NCBI RefSeq assembly: GCF_002017865.1
Contig: NZ_MTJN01000002.1
Location: forward strand, 434,001-498,000
Source of the DNA: Rhodoferax fermentans
Lineage (GTDB): Bacteria; Pseudomonadota; Gammaproteobacteria; Burkholderiales; Burkholderiaceae_C
Length of the DNA: 64,000 bases
Direction of reading: 5' to 3'
Shown here: positions 582 through 40,013 of the stretch, one piece after another
How the letters are laid out: every line of letters begins with the position of its first letter
Numbering within the stretch: the first letter of the stretch is position 1
Made by a program: the position numbers and the translations under genes
Notes under the pieces: model-generated
Databases searched by the model: none
What the model was told of the DNA's origin: nothing
The model's input: only the letters and a program-made list of their open reading frames with translations

Positions 582-1421
582 ATGACTCCCCAAGACTACG
601 TCCAGCAAAAGGCCGCCGCCTCCGGCAGCAGTTTTTATTACGCTTTTTTGTTCCTGCCACCGCCCCGGCGTGCCGCCATCACCGCGTTTTATGCGTTTTG
701 CCGCGAAGTCGATGATGTGGTCGATGACGCCACCGACATCGGTGTGGCCGCCACCAAGCTCGCCTGGTGGCAACAAGAGGTGTCCAAATCTTTTGCTGGG
801 CAAGCCAGCCACCCGGTGATGCAGGCGTTGATGCCGCTGACCCAGGAATTTGCAATTGAGCAGCGCCACCTGCAGGCGGTGATCGAAGGCTGCCAGATGG
901 ACCTGAACCAGACCCGCTACTTGGACTACCCCGGCCTCTCGCGTTACTGCCATCTGGTGGCCGGTGTGGTGGGTGAAGTGGCGGCGCAGATTTTTGGCCA
1001 GACCCAGGCACAGACCACGGCCTACGCCCACACCCTGGGCCAGGCGCTGCAGCTCACCAACATCATCCGCGACGTGGGTGAAGACGCGATGCGTGGCCGC
1101 ATTTACCTGCCGGTCAACGAGTTGCAGCAGTTTGGCGTGACCGCACAAGAGATTTTGAACCGCAGCTATTCGGACCGTTTCACTGCTTTGATGCGTTTTC
1201 AAGCCCAGCGCGCACAAGGCCTGTACGACCAGGCTCTGACCCTGCTGCAGGCCGACGACCGGCGCGCCCAGAAGCCCGGCCTGATGATGGCCAGCATCTA
1301 CCGCGCGCTGCTCGGTGAGATCGAGCGTGAAGAGTTCAAGGTGCTGCACCAACGCATCAGCCTGACCCCGTTGCGCAAGTTCTGGCTGGCCTGGCGCGTG
1401 CAGGCGCTGGGACGCATGTAA
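582..1421 (+). CDS. hpnD: Presqualene diphosphate synthase HpnD
   Basis: This 279-residue protein belongs to the squalene/phytoene synthase family. It condenses two farnesyl diphosphates to presqualene diphosphate. The first Asp-rich motif is seen as REVDDVVDDATD near residues 41-52 and the second as NIIRDVGEDAMRGRIYLP near 155-172; these bind the diphosphates through magnesium. The N-terminal FYYAFLFLPPPRRAAI is typical of HpnD. The ATG start at 582 gives the usual family length. It stands between hpnC and hpnE, with 5 bp before hpnE, so it should be co-transcribed with hpnE for squalene or hopanoid supply. Confidence 0.93.
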   Translation: MTPQDYVQQKAAASGSSFYYAFLFLPPPRRAAITAFYAFCREVDDVVDDATDIGVAATKLAWWQQEVSKSFAGQASHPVMQALMPLTQEFAIEQRHLQAVIEGCQMDLNQTRYLDYPGLSRYCHLVAGVVGEVAAQIFGQTQAQTTAYAHTLGQALQLTNIIRDVGEDAMRGRIYLPVNELQQFGVTAQEILNRSYSDRFTALMRFQAQRAQGLYDQALTLLQADDRRAQKPGLMMASIYRALLGEIEREEFKVLHQRISLTPLRKFWLAWRVQALGRM

Positions 1422-1426
1422 CACCC

Positions 1427-2773
1427 TTGGTTGTGGCCGCAGGTTTGAACATTGCCGTGGTGGGCGCCGGCTGGGCTGGGCTGGCCGCTGCCGTGAACGC
1501 CACACAGGCGGGTCATACCACTACTGTTTTTGAAGCAGCTGAGACTGTGGGTGGAAGGGCCAGAGCCCTCAAAGCCACATTGCCCGATGGCACACCGGTG
1601 ATTCTTGACAACGGCCAGCACATTCTGATTGGTGCGTATTCAGACACCCTGGCGCTGATGCGGCAGGTGGGTGTGGCGCCAGAGCAAACGCTGCTGGACC
1701 TGCCGATGCGCTTGCCGTTCCCCGATGGCCTGGGCATCCGTTTCCCCAAATGGCCAACACCACTCGACGCGCTCGGCGGCATCCTGGGAGCACGCGGCTG
1801 GTCGCTGGTCGACAAATGGTCGCTGTTGCGCGCCGCAGCAAGCTGGCAGCGCCAGGGTTTTGTCTGTGACGACGCGCTCAGTGTGGCCGCTTTGTGCCGC
1901 AGCCTCACACCCCGCATCCTGGCCGAACTGATCGAGCCGCTGTGTGTGTCGGCCCTCAACACACCGGCAGACCAGGCCAGTGGTCGCGTCTTTTTGCGGG
2001 TGTTGCGCGATGCCTTGTTTGGTGTGGCGGGTGGCTCCCATCTGTTACTGCCCACCACCGACCTGAGTGCCTTGTTGCCACAAGCTGCAGCCGATTGGCT
2101 GCAGCAACGCGGCGCTCAGGTGCTGTGCAAAGCGCGGGTGGAGGGCTTGCAGCGCTGCGGCACCCAGTGGCAGCTGGCAGGCACCGGTCTGGGCCCAGCG
2201 GCTGACAAGGGGTTTGACGCGGTGATCTGGGCCACTTCGGCCTCCAATGCGGCTCAGGCCCTTATGAAATATGGGCCAGATGCTCCTGAAAATATATCAA
2301 AGGCGGTGCTGAGCTGGGCCCAGACAGCGCAGGCCCTGCAGTTTGAGGCCATTGCCACGGTCTACGCCTGGTCGGCCAACGCGCACCTCAGCCAGCCCAT
2401 GCTGGCGCTGCGCAGCAGTGCAACGTATCCAGCGCAGTTTGTGTTTGACCGCGCAGCACTGGGTGGCCCGAGAGGCTTGCTGGCCTTTGTGGTGAGTGCC
2501 GCCCAGGGCGACCGCGCCACGCTGCAGGCGCAGGTGCTGGCGCAAGCCAAGGCGCAGCTGGGACTGGACCTGTTGCCGGTGCTCACCGTGGTGGAAAAAC
2601 GCGCCACTTTTGCCTGCACCCCCGGCTTGCAACGCCCGGCACAACACATTGCACCAGGGATCTTGGCCTGTGGCGACTATGTGGAAGGCCCCTACCCGGC
2701 CACGCTGGAAGGCGCCGTGCGCAGCGGCATCGCTGCTATCCAAGCACTGAGCCTGGGCGCCGTGGGCGCCTGA
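1427..2773 (+). CDS. hpnE: Hydroxysqualene dehydroxylase HpnE
   Basis: This 448-residue FAD-dependent amine oxidase-like protein reduces hydroxysqualene to squalene, the last step of the HpnCDE route. The N-terminal VVGAGWAGLAAAVNA is the Rossmann dinucleotide-binding motif, and GDYVEGPYPATLEGAVRSG near the C-terminus is the second FAD-binding segment. No ATG fits the N-terminus: TTG at 1427 is used here and GTG at 1433 is an alternative. Residues of about 275-291 (ALMKYGPDAPENIS) are encoded by a copy of the dispersed repeat, in a region that is probably a variable surface loop. The 5-bp spacing from hpnD indicates coupling. Confidence 0.9.
   Translation: MVVAAGLNIAVVGAGWAGLAAAVNATQAGHTTTVFEAAETVGGRARALKATLPDGTPVILDNGQHILIGAYSDTLALMRQVGVAPEQTLLDLPMRLPFPDGLGIRFPKWPTPLDALGGILGARGWSLVDKWSLLRAAASWQRQGFVCDDALSVAALCRSLTPRILAELIEPLCVSALNTPADQASGRVFLRVLRDALFGVAGGSHLLLPTTDLSALLPQAAADWLQQRGAQVLCKARVEGLQRCGTQWQLAGTGLGPAADKGFDAVIWATSASNAAQALMKYGPDAPENISKAVLSWAQTAQALQFEAIATVYAWSANAHLSQPMLALRSSATYPAQFVFDRAALGGPRGLLAFVVSAAQGDRATLQAQVLAQAKAQLGLDLLPVLTVVEKRATFACTPGLQRPAQHIAPGILACGDYVEGPYPATLEGAVRSGIAAIQALSLGAVGA
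2249..2299 (+). repeat. Dispersed palindromic repeat, copy 2, inside hpnE
   Basis: GGCTCAGGCCCTTATGAAAT followed by ATGGGCC and an A/T-rich AAAATATATC end resembles the repeat consensus. The frame of hpnE is kept through it. This copy is degenerate, so the assignment is moderate. Confidence 0.5.
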
Positions 2774-2832
2774 ACACACACATTGGCCTCGTATGATGCG
2801 GCCATGAAACGGATTTTTGTCGCAGACACACC

Positions 2833-5241
2833 ATGAAGCTGGCTTTCAAAATTTTTGCGGGCCTGTTGCTGGCCCTGCTCTTGGCGGCGCTGGCAGGTGG
2901 CTATTGGTACGTGTCCAACAAACAACCGCAACGCTCGGGTGAATTGACACTGAACCAGCTCAGCGCCCCGGTCACGGTGCGTTATGACGAACGTGGCATC
3001 CCGCACATCAAGGCGGCCAACGAAGCCGACCTGTACCGGGCACTTGGTTATGTGCACGCCCAGGACCGCCTGTTTCAGATGGAAATGGCACGCCGCCTGG
3101 CGCAAGGTGAACTGGCTGCGGTGCTGGGGCCGGATCTGGTCAAAGTCGATAAGCTGTTTCGCACCTTGCGCCTGCGTGAACACGCAGCCCAGGTGGTGGC
3201 CAAGCTCGACCAGAACAGCCCGGCCATCAAGGCACAGCTTGCTTACCTGGACGGCATCAACCAGTACCAGGCCAGCCACCCGGCGCCAATGGAGTTTGAC
3301 TTGGTGGGTATCCCCAAGCGTCCGTTCACCCTGGCCGACACGGTGGCGGTCTCGGGTTACCTGGCCTACAGCTTTGCCGCCGCTTTCAAGACTGAACCGG
3401 TGTTGACCTATGTGCGCGACGAACTGGGGCCAGACTATCTGCGCATCTTTGACCTGGACTGGCATCCCCTGGGGGTGCTGAGCAAAGCCAACACCGCAAG
3501 CCTCCAACCCGACTGGCGGGCCCTGAACCAGTTGAGCCAGGCCGCCAACGAGGTGCATGAGGTGGCTGGTGTGCCGCTGTTTGAGGGCAGCAACGCCTGG
3601 GCCGTGTCGGGGCCCCGCACATCGAGTGGCAAACCGATGCTCGCGGGCGACCCGCACATCAACTTCAGCGTGCCCTCGGTCTGGTACGAGGCGCACCTGA
3701 GTGCACCTGGTTTTGAGCTGTATGGTCACTTCCAGGCCCTCAATGCCTCGGCCCTGATGGGCCACAACCGCCAATTCGTCTGGACACTGACCATGTTCCA
3801 GAACGACGACATGGACCTGGTCAAGTTGCGCACCAACCCCAACAACCCGAACCAGGTGGCCTACATGGGTGAATGGGTTGACCTGCAGACGACCCAGGAG
3901 ACCATCCAGGTCAAGGACGGCAAACCGGTGACCCTGACCCTGCAACGCGCACCCCAAGGCCCGGTCATCACCAGCGCCTTTCGCGACAACCTGGGTGAGG
4001 GGCAGCCCGTGGCCATGTGGTGGACTTTTCTGGAAACCGAAAACCCGGTGCTGGATGCGTTCTACGAACTCAACCGCGCCGACACCCTGCCCAAGGCACG
4101 CGAAGCCGCCAGCAAAATCCACGCACCGGGTCTGAACATCGTCTGGGCCAATGCCAGTGGCAACATCGGCTGGTGGGCGGCCGCCAAGTTGGTGATCCGC
4201 CCGCAGGGTGTGCAGCCGATGTTCCTGCTGGACGGCGAAGAGGAAGAGTCGGACAAGCTGGGCTTTTACCGCTTCAGCGACAACCCGCAGGAAGAAAACC
4301 CGGCGCGTGGTTACATCGTCTCGGCCAACCAGCAGCCGCTGGCCACAAGTGGCCTGCCGGTGGCAGGTTATTACAACGCCTATGACCGCGCCCAGGCGCT
4401 TGAAGACCGCCTGGGTGATGACAAGATCCAGTGGAACGCGCTCAACACCCAGTCCCTGCAACTCAGCACCCAGACCGCCTACTACTGGCGGGTGCTCAAG
4501 CCCCTGCTGCCGCTGCTCAGCGAGGTGGTGCGTGACCCGATGGAGCGCTCGGTGTTTGACAGCCTGACGGTCTGGGATGGGCAATACACCCCGTTCAACA
4601 TCCCACCCACGGTGTTCACCCAGCTCCTGTACGAGCTGACCCAAGCGGCACTGGCCGACGAACTCGGCGAGATGCAGTTCAAGAACCTGCTGAGCACCCG
4701 GGCGCTGGACCTGGCCCTGCCCCGCCTGGCGCAAGACGAGGATTCCCCTTGGTGGGACAACATCAACACCAAAAAGGTCGAGACCCAACAGGACATTGTG
4801 CGCATCGCCTGGCGCGCCACCATGGCCCACCTGAAGGCCACTCTGGGCAACAGTCCCAACGACTGGGGCTGGGGGCGTGCCCACACCCTCACCCACAGAC
4901 ACCCGCTGGCGGTCCAACAACCGTTGAGCTGGCTACTCAATGTCGGGCCGTTTGAGGTGGGTGGTGCACGCGAGGTGCCCAACAACCTGTCACAAGCCAT
5001 CAGCCCGGCCCCCTGGCAGGTGGTGTATGGCCCCTCCACCCGACGCATCATTGACTTTGCCGACCCTGGTCAGGCCCGTGGCATCAACCCGGTGGGCCAA
5101 AGTGGTGTGCCGTTTGACCGCCATTACCAGGACCAGGCCGCCGCCTACGCCGTGGGTGGCTACATGCAGGAATACCTCAACGAGTCCGACGTGGCCATCA
5201 ACACCCGCAGCACCTTGCGCTTTTTGCCGAGCCGGCGCTAA
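2833..5241 (+). CDS. Penicillin acylase family (S45) N-terminal nucleophile hydrolase
   Basis: This 802-residue protein has an N-terminal hydrophobic segment at residues 5-27, an exported signal or anchor. The family makes an inactive precursor that cuts itself into alpha and beta chains; the new N-terminal Ser of the beta chain is the nucleophile that hydrolyses amides. Here FEGSNAWAVSG places this Ser at residue 253. The preceding G and the following N-A-W-A match the family, as does GDPHINFSVPSVWYEAHL. Substrates of family members include beta-lactam side chains, acyl-homoserine lactones and other acyl amides, and the sequence alone does not decide. It lies 59 bp after hpnE, so it may share the transcript, but a functional link to hopanoids is not evident. 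Confidence 0.88.
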   Translation: MKLAFKIFAGLLLALLLAALAGGYWYVSNKQPQRSGELTLNQLSAPVTVRYDERGIPHIKAANEADLYRALGYVHAQDRLFQMEMARRLAQGELAAVLGPDLVKVDKLFRTLRLREHAAQVVAKLDQNSPAIKAQLAYLDGINQYQASHPAPMEFDLVGIPKRPFTLADTVAVSGYLAYSFAAAFKTEPVLTYVRDELGPDYLRIFDLDWHPLGVLSKANTASLQPDWRALNQLSQAANEVHEVAGVPLFEGSNAWAVSGPRTSSGKPMLAGDPHINFSVPSVWYEAHLSAPGFELYGHFQALNASALMGHNRQFVWTLTMFQNDDMDLVKLRTNPNNPNQVAYMGEWVDLQTTQETIQVKDGKPVTLTLQRAPQGPVITSAFRDNLGEGQPVAMWWTFLETENPVLDAFYELNRADTLPKAREAASKIHAPGLNIVWANASGNIGWWAAAKLVIRPQGVQPMFLLDGEEEESDKLGFYRFSDNPQEENPARGYIVSANQQPLATSGLPVAGYYNAYDRAQALEDRLGDDKIQWNALNTQSLQLSTQTAYYWRVLKPLLPLLSEVVRDPMERSVFDSLTVWDGQYTPFNIPPTVFTQLLYELTQAALADELGEMQFKNLLSTRALDLALPRLAQDEDSPWWDNINTKKVETQQDIVRIAWRATMAHLKATLGNSPNDWGWGRAHTLTHRHPLAVQQPLSWLLNVGPFEVGGAREVPNNLSQAISPAPWQVVYGPSTRRIIDFADPGQARGINPVGQSGVPFDRHYQDQAAAYAVGGYMQEYLNESDVAINTRSTLRFLPSRR

Positions 5242-5321
5242 GCTGGGCCGCATCACCTGCCGTCTGCGTCTCAAAAACACCACATGACCTACGGCGTGCC
5301 GCCGTGGGTGAAAATGCAGCA

Positions 5322-6428
5322 ATGTCTCTTTTTCTTCCCCCTTACGCCGCCGAGCCGCCTTTCGCCCATGGACAGGCGCCACGGACCGGTGTTTTGTACT
5401 GCAATCTGGGCACCCCAGACACCCCGACCACCCCGGATGTCCGACGTTTTCTGGCCGAGTTCCTGAGTGACCCCCGTGTGGTCGAAATCCCGCGCCTGAT
5501 CTGGCTGGTGTTGCTGTACGGTGTGGTGTTGCGGGTGCGGCCAGCCCAGTCGGCGGCGAAATACGCCAGCATCTGGAGCGCAGAGGGCTCGCCCCTGAAA
5601 GTCTGGACCGAAAGGCAGACCCGCGCCCTGCAAGCCTGGCTGACACAACGCAAACACCAGGTGCTGGTACGGTATGCGATGCGCTACGGCAGCAGCTCCA
5701 TCCCGAGCCAGCTCGATGCCCTCAAGGCCGAAGGCGCCACCCGGGTGCTGATCGTGCCAGCTTACCCGCAGTACTCAGCCACCACCACCGCCAGCCTGTG
5801 GGATGCGGTCTACAAATGGGCCGCCACGGTGCGCAGCATCCCCGAATTGCGCTTCATCAACCACTACCACGACGACCCGCACTACATCGCGGCACTGGCA
5901 TCAAGGGTGTCGCACCACTGGTTGGCGCATGGCCGCCCGGATGTGCTGGTGATGAGTTTCCATGGGGTGCCAGAGCGCACGCTGCACCTGGGCGACCCCT
6001 ACCACTGCGAGTGTTTCAAAACCGCCCGTCTGCTGGCAGAACAACTGGGCCTGAACGCCAGTGAGTTCAAAGTGACCTTCCAGTCCCGCCTGGGCCGCGC
6101 CAAATGGTTGGAACCTTATACCGAACCGACCCTGATCGAGATGGGCAAAGCGGGTGTCAAACGGGTGGATGTGGTGTGCCCGGCCTTCACCAGCGACTGC
6201 CTGGAAACCCTGGAAGAGATCAACCAGGAGGCCCGCGAGGCCTTCCTGCATGCGGGTGGCCAGAGTTTTCACTACATCCCCTGCCTCAACGACGACGAGG
6301 CCTGGATTGCGGCTTTGGGCGAGATCACCCAGCAACACCTGATGGGCTGGCCTACGCAGTCCCTGCCCGACCCACAAGCACTGGCCGCATCCAAGGCCGC
6401 TGCGCACGCACTGGGTGCCGAGGTCTAG
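5322..6428 (+). CDS. hemH: Ferrochelatase HemH
   Basis: This 368-residue enzyme inserts Fe(II) into protoporphyrin IX, the last step of protohaem synthesis. The N-terminal VLYCNLGTPD is the family start. The signature MSFHGVPERTLHLGDPYHCE holds the metal-binding His, and AYPQYSATTTAS and FQSRLGRAKWLEPYTE are further family blocks. The ATG at 5322 (MSLFLPP) is chosen. An in-frame GTG at 5304 would add six residues and has no better ribosome site. It faces the cheB end of the chemotaxis operon. Haem demand fits the c-type haem chemoreceptor encoded at 25.4 kb. Confidence 0.95.
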   Translation: MSLFLPPYAAEPPFAHGQAPRTGVLYCNLGTPDTPTTPDVRRFLAEFLSDPRVVEIPRLIWLVLLYGVVLRVRPAQSAAKYASIWSAEGSPLKVWTERQTRALQAWLTQRKHQVLVRYAMRYGSSSIPSQLDALKAEGATRVLIVPAYPQYSATTTASLWDAVYKWAATVRSIPELRFINHYHDDPHYIAALASRVSHHWLAHGRPDVLVMSFHGVPERTLHLGDPYHCECFKTARLLAEQLGLNASEFKVTFQSRLGRAKWLEPYTEPTLIEMGKAGVKRVDVVCPAFTSDCLETLEEINQEAREAFLHAGGQSFHYIPCLNDDEAWIAALGEITQQHLMGWPTQSLPDPQALAASKAAAHALGAEV

Positions 6429-37129: not shown

Positions 37130-37546
37130 ATGGACAAATTGCGCATCGACAAATGGTTGTGGGCCGCCCGCTTCTACAAGACCCGCAGCCTGGCCTGCGA
37201 TGAGATCGACAAGGGCCGGGTCCAGGTCAACGGCGCAACCGTGAAACCCGCACGCGAGGTCAAGGCGGGTGACAGCGTCCAACTGCGCAACGGCGCCATC
37301 ACCCGCACGGTGACGGTACTGGGAGTCAGTGACAAACGTGGCCCGGCGCCGCAGGCCGCCCTGCTGTTCGAGGAAACCGCCGAATCTGTGCAACAGCGCC
37401 AGCAAGCCTTGGAGCAACGCCGCCTGGCACCCGAACCCGCGCTGACCATGACCCAAGGCCGCCCCACCAAACGCGACCGCCGCTACGCCGACAAATTGCG
37501 CGGCGACGCCTGGGGTGACCGCTGGAGTGCGTCGCTGGAGCGGTGA
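37130..37546 (+). CDS. hslR: Heat shock protein 15 (S4 RNA-binding domain)
   Basis: This 138-residue protein has an S4 domain at about 3-62 (LRIDKWLWAARFYKTRSLACDEIDKGRVQVNG). A basic C-terminal tail follows (GRPTKRDRRYADKLRG). Hsp15 binds free 50S subunits that carry nascent chains and helps recycle stalled subunits after heat stress. The start ATG is at 37130, 24 bp after the peroxidase gene, so both may share a transcript. Confidence 0.92.
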   Translation: MDKLRIDKWLWAARFYKTRSLACDEIDKGRVQVNGATVKPAREVKAGDSVQLRNGAITRTVTVLGVSDKRGPAPQAALLFEETAESVQQRQQALEQRRLAPEPALTMTQGRPTKRDRRYADKLRGDAWGDRWSASLER

Positions 37547-37630
37547 ACTGTCACAGTGCGGCTTGGTCTGATGTGTCGTCAACTGTACTTACCGTGACAG
37601 TGATTCAAGAGTGACCAGATAGCAGTGGTG

Positions 37631-37708
37631 GGCCATATGGGGTCAGGCAGAGGGCCTCATACGCGCTCCGCTTTGCGAAATCGGCCCCCTGCCTGCCCCC
37701 ACATGGCC
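37631..37708 (+). repeat. Long hairpin module A with conserved loop
   Basis: Bases 37631-37654 pair with 37685-37708: GGCCATATGGGG and CCCCCACATGGCC form the outer stem, CAGGCAGAGGG and CCCCCTGCCTG the inner stem, with about three mismatches in 24 pairs. The loop, 37655-37684, starts CCTCATACGCGCT and ends CTTTGCGAAATCGG. The same loop recurs in module B in inverted orientation. No gene is supported here. Confidence 0.8.
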
Positions 37709-37782
37709 TGAGACAGTCGTGGCGTTCGGTACTGCCAGGAATCTGAGATTGAAAGCTGGCGAACCTGAACGCTTGCCGCCGT

Positions 37783-37852
37783 GGGTGGGGTATTGGGGAC
37801 CACCGATTTCGCAAAGCGCAGCGCGTATGAGGTGGGCCCCAATACCCCACCC
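37783..37852 (-). repeat. Long hairpin module B with the same loop inverted
   Basis: The arms GGGTGGGGTATTGGGGACC (37783-37801) and GGGCCCCAATACCCCACCC (37834-37852) pair with a single mismatch. The loop between them, read on the minus strand, matches the loop of module A with one difference in 30 bases. The stem sequence is unrelated to that of module A. Confidence 0.8.
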
Positions 37853-37900
37853 GCTGCCACCACAGACCAGAAACAACAGGACAATCAAAACCACCAAAGC

Positions 37901-37935
37901 AAAAACCCCGCACAGGCAGCCGATGCGGGGTTTTC
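37901..37935 (-). terminator. Rho-independent terminator of acsA
   Basis: On the minus strand the stem AACCCCGCA/TGCGGGGTT is followed by a run of Ts. It stands about 85-120 bp beyond the acsA stop and may also act on the plus strand. Confidence 0.8.
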
Positions 37936-37964
37936 GTGGTGACTGGCTCAGCACCAGTCTTATA

Positions 37965-38020
37965 GATCAAAACAGCCTCTAGCCCTTATATAACAAGGGC
38001 CAGTAGCTATTATTTTGATC
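37965..38020 (+). repeat. Dispersed palindromic repeat, copy 8 (best conserved)
   Basis: GATCAAAACAGCCTCTAGCC then CTTATATAACAAGGGC then CAGTAGCTATTATTTTGATC. The outer GATCAAAA and TTTTGATC are themselves inverted, so the whole element can fold into one long imperfect hairpin. It abuts the acsA stop codon (38019-38021). Confidence 0.85.
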
Positions 38021-40013
38021 AGTAGGTCTGCCCCAACTGGCTCAGGATCGCCGGGTTTTCCAGGGTTGAGGTGTCCTGGGTGATGGTTTCACCCTTGGCC
38101 AGGGAGCGCAACAGGCGGCGCATGATCTTGCCGGAGCGGGTCTTGGGCAGGTTCTCGCCAAAACGGATGTCCTTGGGTTTGGCAATCGGGCCGATTTCCT
38201 TGGCCACCCAGTCACGCAGCTCCTTGGCAATCTGTTTGGCTTCGTCACCAGACGGCACACCGCGTTTGAGCACCACAAAGGCGCAGATGGCTTCACCGGT
38301 CAAATCGTCCGGGCGGCCTACCACCGCAGCTTCGGCCACCAGGTCGGTCTTGGCGACCAGGGCCGATTCGATTTCCATGGTGCCCATGCGGTGGCCGGAG
38401 ACGTTGAGCACATCGTCAATCCGGCCGGTGATGCGGAAGTAGCCACGGTCGGCGCTGCGCACCGCGCCGTCACCGGCCAGGTAGTAAGTGCCACCCATTT
38501 CTGCCGGGAAATAGCTCGATTTAAAACGCGCCGGATCGTTCCAGATGGTGCGGATCATCGACGGCCAGGGGCGCTTGATGACCAGCATGCCGCCCGAGCC
38601 ATTGGGCACGTCGTGACCGGCTTCGTCCACGATGGCGGCCATGATGCCGGGCAGCGGCAAGGTGCAGCTACCGGGCACCAGCGGTGTTGCGCCAGGCAGC
38701 GGGGTGATCATGTGGCCACCGGTTTCGGTCTGCCAGAAGGTGTCAACGATCGGGCATTTTTCCTTGCCCACGTTCTTGTAGTACCACATCCAGGCTTCGG
38801 GGTTGATCGGTTCACCGACCGAACCGAGGATGCGCAGGCTCGACAGGTCTGAGCGGTCCGGGTGCACCTTGGGGTCACTCTCGGCCGACTTGATCAGGGA
38901 GCGGATCGCGGTGGGGGCGGTGTAGAAAATGCTGCACTTGTGGCGCTCGATCATCTGCCAGAAGCGCCCGGCGTTCGGGTAGGTGGGCACACCTTCAAAA
39001 ATGATCTGGGTGGCACCGGCGGCCAAGGGGCCATAACCGACATAGGCGTGGCCAGTGATCCAGCCGATGTCGGCGGTGCACCAGAACACGTCGTCAGCGC
39101 GCAAATCAAAGGTCCAGTCCATGGTCAGTTTGGACCACAGCACAAAACCACCCGTGGCGTGTTGCACGCCCTTGGGTTTGCCCGTGGAGCCGGAGGTGAA
39201 CAAGATGAACAACGGGTGCTCGGCACCCACCATCACCGGTGCGCAGGTGGTGCTTTGGCCAGCCAAGGCTTCGGTGAAGGTGATGTCGCGCCCAGCGACC
39301 ATGTTGCATTGGGTCGGGGTGCGCTCAAACACCAACACCGTCTTGATCGACTCACAACCGCCCAGGCCCAGGCCTTCGTCGACGATGGATTTGAGCGGCA
39401 GCTCCTTGCCACCACGCATCTGGAAGTTGGCAGTGACCACCGCCACCGCGCCAGCGTCGATGATGCGTTCTTGCAGCGCCTTGGCCGAGAAGCCACCAAA
39501 CACCACGCTGTGGGTGGCGCCGATGCGGGCGCAGGCCTGCATGGCAATCACACCTTCGAGCGTCATCGGCATGTAGATCAGAACGCGGTCACCCTTCTGG
39601 ATGCCGCGGGCGGTCAGGGCGTTGGCAAACTGGCTGACCTTGGCCAGCAATTCCTTGTAGGTGGTCTTGGTGACTTCGCCACCGTCGGATTCAAAAATGA
39701 CCGCGACCTTGCCCTCGTTGGGCGTGCCCATGTGTTTGTCGAGGCAGTTGTAAGAGGCGTTGAGTTCGCCGTCTTCAAACCAGGTGTAGAACGGGGCATT
39801 CGATTCGTCGAGTACTTTGGTGAACGGCTTGTTCCAGACCACGTTCTCACGCGCCAGGCGCGCCCAGAAACCTTCAAAGTCATTGGCAGCTTCAGCGCAC
39901 AAGGCGTTGTAGGCATCCATGCCGGAAATACGTGCGGCTTTGACAGTCGCCTCGCTGGGTTCGAACACGCGGTTTTCAACCAGCACGGACTCAATAGCGG
40001 AAGGTGTGCTCAC
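38019..40013 (-). CDS. acsA: Acetyl-CoA synthetase
   Basis: This 664-residue enzyme makes acetyl-CoA from acetate, ATP and CoA through acetyl-[24 protein letters not shown] is the adenylate-forming core motif. [18 protein letters not shown] and [22 protein letters not shown] are further core blocks. [14 protein letters not shown] near the C-terminus contains the catalytic Lys that is a known acetylation target. The GTG start at 40013 follows GAGGAGA. Together with the phaCAB genes downstream in the window it supports acetate use and PHA storage. Confidence 0.96.

Follow-up and report, generated by a model that had tools for sequence, protein, structure and literature searches.

The window analysed here, a stretch of 64,000 nucleotides of Rhodoferax fermentans, sits in a 4.45-Mb contig of a genome of 4.47 Mb. 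A plus-strand ORF with an S4 domain, which fits hslR (37130-37546), is followed by a gene-free gap of 472 bp (37547-38018) and by a minus-strand acetyl-CoA synthetase ORF, which fits acsA (38019-40013). The gap carries two hairpins, each made of a 26-nt arm, a 28-nt core and a second 26-nt arm. Hairpin A (37630-37709) folds on the minus strand, with its 5′ arm at 37684-37709, its conserved core at 37656-37683 (CGATTT...TATGAG on the minus strand) and its 3′ arm at 37630-37655. Hairpin B (37778-37857) folds on the plus strand, with its 5′ arm at 37778-37803, its conserved core at 37804-37831 and its 3′ arm at 37832-37857, which is followed by a semi-conserved CACCCAAGAC-like tail. The spacer of 68 nt from A to B (37710-37777), to which no strand is assigned, contains semi-conserved inner flanks; the one before B, e.g. 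GGCGAACC..AACGC, recurs before other B-like copies. The two cores, with the consensus CGAT[T/G]TCGCAAAGCGNAGCGCGT[A/C]TGAG (28 nt inside 26-bp stems), are inverted and differ at one base, and the arms of A differ from those of B, each pair being complementary. A sequence-only reading of this stretch had described two hairpins with near-identical loops in opposite orientation and unrelated, self-complementary stems within a gene-free stretch of 472 bp between hslR and acsA. All of this was confirmed, both hairpins being slightly longer than proposed; the stems exist, but the length given for them (19-24 bp) was somewhat short, 25-26 bp being nearer. The flanking terminator and further repeat were also found, as a terminator-like inverted repeat at 37902-37934 and near 37960-38022.

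The repeat of about 50 bp at 37960-38022 (AGCCTCTAGCCCTTAT..AAGGGCCAGTAGCTAT) adjoins the hairpin pair. A stretch in locus L149 that resembles it has dozens of matches in genomes G078 and G004, which marks it as an abundant repeat of the genus in its own right. A complete minus-strand ORF with the DDE transposase domains PF01609 and PF05598 (35399-36415) lies about 1.2 kb from the hairpins and bears no sign of belonging to them.

The folding potential of the locus was evaluated against shuffled sequences. The region 37600-37880 reached −141 kcal/mol as compared to −104 ± 5 kcal/mol after shuffling (z −7.0; 0 of 200 shuffles as good). With DNA folding, z was −7.2 for the core strand of A and −6.8 for that of B, as compared to −4.5 and −5.4 for the respective opposite strands.

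The genome of R. fermentans contains 12 copies of a 15-base core pattern (at most one mismatch), arranged as five inverted neighbour pairs and two singles, and the reversed control pattern gave none. This excludes chance, and the possibility that the loop occurs nowhere else and that the arms are accidental does not hold. A covariance model gave 37 matches in the same genome, two of which are the reverse strand of others, leaving about 35 structural relatives. The model found the family in at least 76 of 89 genomes of the genus, including at least 46 of the 50 with a completeness of 90% or more and a contamination of 5% or less, and an order-wide search outside the genus added at least 4 of 250 genomes; these are lower bounds because 52 candidates were scored per genome in the genus and 18 in the order-wide search. 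Within the taxonomic family, 7 further genera of 40 were positive, so that the hairpins are patchy across genera outside Rhodoferax. A longer core pattern of 23 bases (at most two mismatches) matched 9 of 36 genomes of the genus, including that of R. fermentans and G009, where the match lies without a hairpin, and none of 24 genomes that represent other families of the order. An exact-pattern scan of 84,980 species, with one genome per species, returned 54 stretches, all titled Rhodoferax, Comamonadaceae, Burkholderiales or beta-proteobacterium, and the closest named relatives with the element are recorded as Rhodoferax. The units measure about 76-82 nt, one copy with a larger inner loop reaching 111 nt, and several near-identical single copies lie at unrelated sites. 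BLA1 and U11-2br are examples of cultured Rhodoferax strains rich in copies. Carriage by plasmids or viruses was rejected, as no plasmid matched 37600-37880 and the exact 28-base core was absent from IMG/VR.

The core has the layout C-GAT[K]T-(short inner hairpin)-[M]TGA-G with conserved ends, and it fixes which strand of each unit is the folding strand. The inner hairpin varies among copies, for instance CTGGGCCTTTGACAG, CTGGTACCCCAG or AAAAAGCGAAGC. Among 135 hairpins (de-duplication was by exact sequence only, orthologues being counted separately), the ends read CGATT...ATGAG in 77 and CGATG...CTGAG in 47. The K and M positions covary, with G-C in 45 and T-A in 26 of 72 copies and a single exception.

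Other sets of palindromes were also seen. Long palindromes with unlike arms and a shared purine-rich inner sequence, of AGGAGGAGGCC type and its complement, occur in L062 (3458-3543), L070 (1657-1759), L085 (4429-4531) and L086 (7525-7609), and are possibly a second family of the same design. A different repeat family carries a GGGGTC(A/G)GA-type motif at the arms and AT-rich centres (L060, 6259-6320; L066, 3268-3329; L061, 1867-1958). Finally, a perfect 22-bp palindrome around CTCCTAC...GTAGGAG in L084 (6787-6866) resembles a REP-type tag.

The stems of 25-27 bp are constrained to pair and hardly constrained in sequence. In an alignment of 44 diverse hairpins, chosen from 90 with thresholds of 19 or more arm matches out of 26 and a mutual identity no higher than 86%, a choice that favours pairing, both-sided (compensatory) changes were observed in 28 of 31 pairs and 95.1% of the cells paired. 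The covariation score was 0.795, as compared to 0.190 for shuffled and at most 0.143 for slid partners. Without any arm filter, 86 hairpins found by the core pattern showed a median of 23 Watson-Crick pairs out of 26 between their own arms; ten of them paired at 17 positions or fewer, recombinants and decayed copies among them. Two stem types, A-like and B-like, cover 71 of the 86 main-core copies and recur at many loci. When arms were swapped within a type, 18.7 pairs were left among the 39 B-like copies and 17.5 among the 32 A-like copies, as compared to 22.7 with own arms. Cores of this kind also occur in other genera, inside stems of comparable length whose sequence is entirely different.

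At one orthologous locus, defined by the same flanking genes in many species, the B hairpin of the pair there was followed on 11 contigs (10 distinct sequences); both flanking genes could be aligned for nine of these, and a single one for L043 and L061. Both-sided changes occurred in 14 of 31 pairs, where 5.6 were expected from shuffling and at most 5 from slid partners. These data indicate that the evolution of the stems proceeds in situ, with no rebuilding at each insertion, and they contradict a model in which the arms are copied from the target at insertion. The sequence-only reading had left two ways open, selection for structure or an element that copies or rebuilds its arms at each site. 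The first is supported by the covariation among copies, by the compensation in place and by the mismatch bias of one strand described below, whereas the second is unsupported, since the A-like and B-like types are inherited, recur and change at orthologous sites. The recurrence of these stems at other loci agrees in part with a plain repeat, as that reading had considered; the stems covary, however. In L155 (1501-1579), a copy of the R. fermentans genome, the outer stem is wholly unlike that of the sister copies on both arms, and the inner stem, the core and the near flank are kept. This is a block replacement rather than a series of single compensations, and it keeps the idea of arm rebuilding alive for single cases.

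Mismatches in the stems are strongly biased towards one strand. Read on the core strand, the inner 25 pairs of the 135 hairpins contain 267 mismatched cells of the G.T type versus 24 A.C. Counted once per stem cluster (16 similarity clusters), position and type, the mismatches were GT 92 versus AC 16, GA 33 versus CT 10, GG 13 versus CC 3 and TT 6 versus AA 3. The arm filter used for the set treats G.T and A.C equally as mismatches, and the hairpins found by the core alone gave G.T/A.C counts of 130/17 with the filter and 147/35 without it. The covariance model is not neutral in this respect, as it rewards wobble pairs on the core strand, and the loci that it found or led to gave 116 G.T versus 4 A.C; the bias stands without the model, because the loci found by the core pattern gave 151 versus 20. 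Concomitantly, the core strand folds more stably than its complement in 128 of 135 hairpins with RNA parameters and in 131 with DNA parameters. After replacement of the core by a neutral cap, the arms alone favoured the core strand in 120 cases and disfavoured it in 12, with 3 ties. Extrusion of a cruciform and template switching are symmetrical and do not predict such a bias. Taken together, the biased mismatches and the stability of the core strand show that a single-stranded fold of one defined strand is, or was, under selection. This evidence fits RNA as well as DNA.

We then analysed how the units are arranged. Among 47 adjacent pairs, 40 have their folding strands directed outward (head-to-head), 4 inward and 3 in direct order, one of the latter being an overlap artefact; 44 are therefore inverted, the count leaving aside the pair at hslR in G004, which is also direct. 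The paired cores are identical in 24 of the 47 (6.4% expected) and of the same type in 42 (40% expected), and their stems are unrelated. In an inverted pair the two hairpins fold on opposite strands, so that neither one transcript nor one single strand of DNA could serve both. A model of strict kissing between complementary cores was rejected, because the cores differ in 23 of the 47 pairs and a few pairs are direct.

Comparison of loci shows presence in some relatives and absence in others. The element occupies the hslR-acsA gap in G000, G078 and G004, the last of which has the order B-A and carries each core on the minus strand; the syntenic gap in G024, G060 and G084 lacks it. Around position 1500 of L149, L155 and L278, close relatives aligned over one flank only, or over flanks with a wholly different middle, and neither a clean empty site nor a target duplication was obtained at these three loci. 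The element may sit there at rearrangement breakpoints.

Transposase associations, to which the sequence-only reading had pointed, were searched around genes of the PF01797 (Y1/RAYT-like) family. No hairpin of this family was found in 43 stretches around such genes (sets of 30 and 13, with one gene shared), and the set of 13 also lacked palindromes with arms of 16 nt (at least 14 matches). A single-copy RAYT-like gene lies at G000:C2:1287845-1288129. Across the 89 genomes, hairpins and PF01797 occur together in 69, hairpins only in 7, PF01797 only in 10 and neither in 3, the hairpin genomes being a lower bound and some genomes incomplete. The 7 and 10 genomes with one of the two indicate that there is no tight link, and RAYT was rejected as a linked partner given its 43 hairpin-free stretches. 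An autonomous transposon bounded by hairpin pairs 1.1-1.4 kb apart was likewise rejected. Four such stretches were taken and ORFs listed in three, and no transposase was recognised: in one stretch, hairpins lie within a large MmeI-like methylase gene, and Pfam matched none of three small ORFs taken from the remaining two. Direct repeats beside each hairpin, as in a cleavage-site model, seemed likely by eye and proved no better than in shuffled flanks (mean best 12-mer match 7.77 versus 7.73 for 132 hairpins).

The family was compared with known repeats. ERIC, RIME and the hairpins are alike as dispersed intergenic imperfect palindromes; ERIC, RIME and similar elements are conserved along their full length, stems included. 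The attC sites of integrons, which are also mentioned in PMC8266576, need R′ and R″ boxes, lie in cassette arrays and go with IntI. As with the hairpins, one DNA strand of attC folds and structure outweighs stem sequence. The closest parallel in organisation is provided by REP and REPIN sequences. REPINs are described with inverted ends that are conserved and, between them, a spacer whose fold shows compensatory changes (PMC3116915), and TnpA_REP with an action on one strand that relies on a bulge or loop and on GTAG (PMC8266576). The REP/REPIN elements and the hairpins both consist of short palindromic units dispersed mostly between genes, form head-to-head dimers whose partners may differ in stem, with singles beside the dimers, and show strand-specific folding with compensatory changes. 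The layout is inside out, however: a REPIN keeps its ends and varies in its spacer hairpin, whereas a Rhodoferax hairpin keeps its centre and varies in its long arms, and the unit of about 80 nt is about twice as long as the REP/REPIN unit of 20-40 bp. The surveyed REP families carry GTAG or CGTC tags, and the names Rhodoferax, Polaromonas and Acidovorax do not occur in the main text of that survey (PMC3733652). GTAG was found on neither side of any of the 135 hairpins, and CGTC on the 5′ side of 13 and the 3′ side of 7 (background 3.3% per window). The RAYT gene of REP/REPIN systems is often flanked by its REPs, whereas no such hairpin lies beside the RAYT-like genes here. The hairpins thus share the inverted dimers (44/47) and the strand-specific folding with REPINs, and lack the GTAG tag, the 20-40-bp unit and the linked RAYT gene.

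A further candidate is the betaproteobacterial repeat element, BRE, for whose Bordetella copies coordinates are published (PMC3110155): elements of 75-91 bp, GC-rich, mostly intergenic and some inside genes, listed from Rhodoferax ferrireducens (4 copies) and from two strains of Polaromonas (29 and 4 copies), with multiple copies per locus and one copy that is part of small RNAs. BRE resembles the hairpin family in length, in GC-rich intergenic placing and in its Rhodoferax host. Its copies were identified by similarity (more than 70% sequence identity) and presented as tandem repeats, and a hairpin, a conserved core and covariation are absent from the part of its description compared (PMC3110155). 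BRE may be a relative of the hairpin family, as judged by description. In the part of the open-access literature covered, no description of the Rhodoferax hairpin family was found.

The explanation that we favour, with a probability of about 0.45, takes A and B as two units of a palindromic element that is interspersed, non-autonomous and probably mobile, REPIN-like and recognised as folded single-stranded DNA. We infer both the mobility and the acting protein. In favour of this explanation are the covariation, the selection of one strand, the dispersal of the copies, the order of the dimers, the likeness of paired cores, the presence or absence at the hslR-acsA locus between relatives, the lack of sense bias and the patchy occurrence over genera. 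Against it are that neither a transposase nor a GTAG tag was found with the hairpins, that the three loci compared yielded no clean empty site or target duplication, and that the folding strands of a pair are opposite. A strand-specific DNA-processing protein, most likely of the HUH or TnpA(REP) kind, would recognise the folded single strand through the internal loop and the pairing, the stem sequence not being read. Recognition of this type would leave the stem free to drift by compensatory change, and exchange between the inverted cores would keep the two cores of a pair alike.

The main rival is a structured RNA family, in which the core strand would be transcribed and its internal loop, C-GAUKU / MUGA-G, bound by a protein; head-to-head pairs would then be divergent small RNAs or UTR elements. 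We regard it as rather unlikely. Compensatory change with G.U-type wobble confined to one strand and the conserved internal loop with its covarying K-M pair are what such a family would show. The gene context, established from gene calls with a home-made codon score, is also in agreement: the clusters lie mostly 3′ of genes, and only 1 of the 60 with both neighbours called is in a divergent context. However, the mRNA-sense strand is not preferred, although the numbers are small. Single units between tandem genes are sense in 3 cases and antisense in 6. Ten of 105 clusters lie inside called genes, and the single units there occur in both orientations (4 sense, 5 antisense). This lack of sense bias fits DNA better than mRNA. 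Furthermore, Rfam gave no match at gathering score in the whole window, the region 37500-38050 returning weak sub-threshold matches only (the best to a microRNA family, E 0.008, far below gathering score), and the mismatch excess on the core strand extends to G.A and G.G, which are mild in DNA. The absence of sense bias, the units lying in genes both ways, the order of the dimers and the G.A and G.G excess all lean towards DNA, none of them being decisive. As a separate observation, the stretch 1985-3436 of L158 places three family hairpins in a minus-strand ORF (1275-5567) with MmeI-type methylase domains, the reading frame running through them uninterrupted by a stop.

It is improbable that the hairpins are long inverted repeats with no function, whose perfection would be maintained at replication by template switching or by gene conversion from arm to arm, and whose spread would be due to ordinary recombination. 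Several copies do look driven by the palindrome itself. In L015 the core is inverted within its stem relative to the orthologues; L019 and L082 are single-core products of core-core deletion at one locus, with a B-like left arm and an A-like right arm; and in L155 a block was replaced on both arms. Template switching is strand-symmetric, however, and predicts neither that G.T should be 11 times as frequent as A.C on the core strand nor that the ends of the core should be nearly fixed, so that this explanation is already disfavoured by the strand bias. Insertion of a mobile core alone at the centre of existing palindromes is very improbable: very different stems do surround one core type, and orthologues that keep their A-like and B-like stems differ in core type (in L139, of R. 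fermentans itself, both hairpins have a core type unlike that of G078 and G084 at the locus of L019 and L082, as compared with L094 and L095), but none of 17 long palindromes lacking the main core in about 0.47 Mb is an A- or B-stem without a core of this kind, and the core types share their ends, so that replacement of the inner part suffices.

Returning to the REPIN-like element recognised as folded single-stranded DNA, we tentatively propose that it may form a new class, a strand-specific, single-strand-folded element with a C-GATKT / MTGA-G loop and long sequence-free stems, in effect an inside-out REPIN served by a hairpin-recognising enzyme and patchy over genera of this Burkholderiales family. 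The hairpins constitute a large natural data set in which the hairpin of one strand is kept and the stem sequence is nearly free, and from which structure-only recognition of DNA or RNA can be read in genomes. The matched cores with differing stems, the core inversion and the core-core deletion make the concerted evolution of palindromes testable at single loci. Finally, the protein that recognises the conserved internal loop could be sought with this loop, which makes a precise bait.
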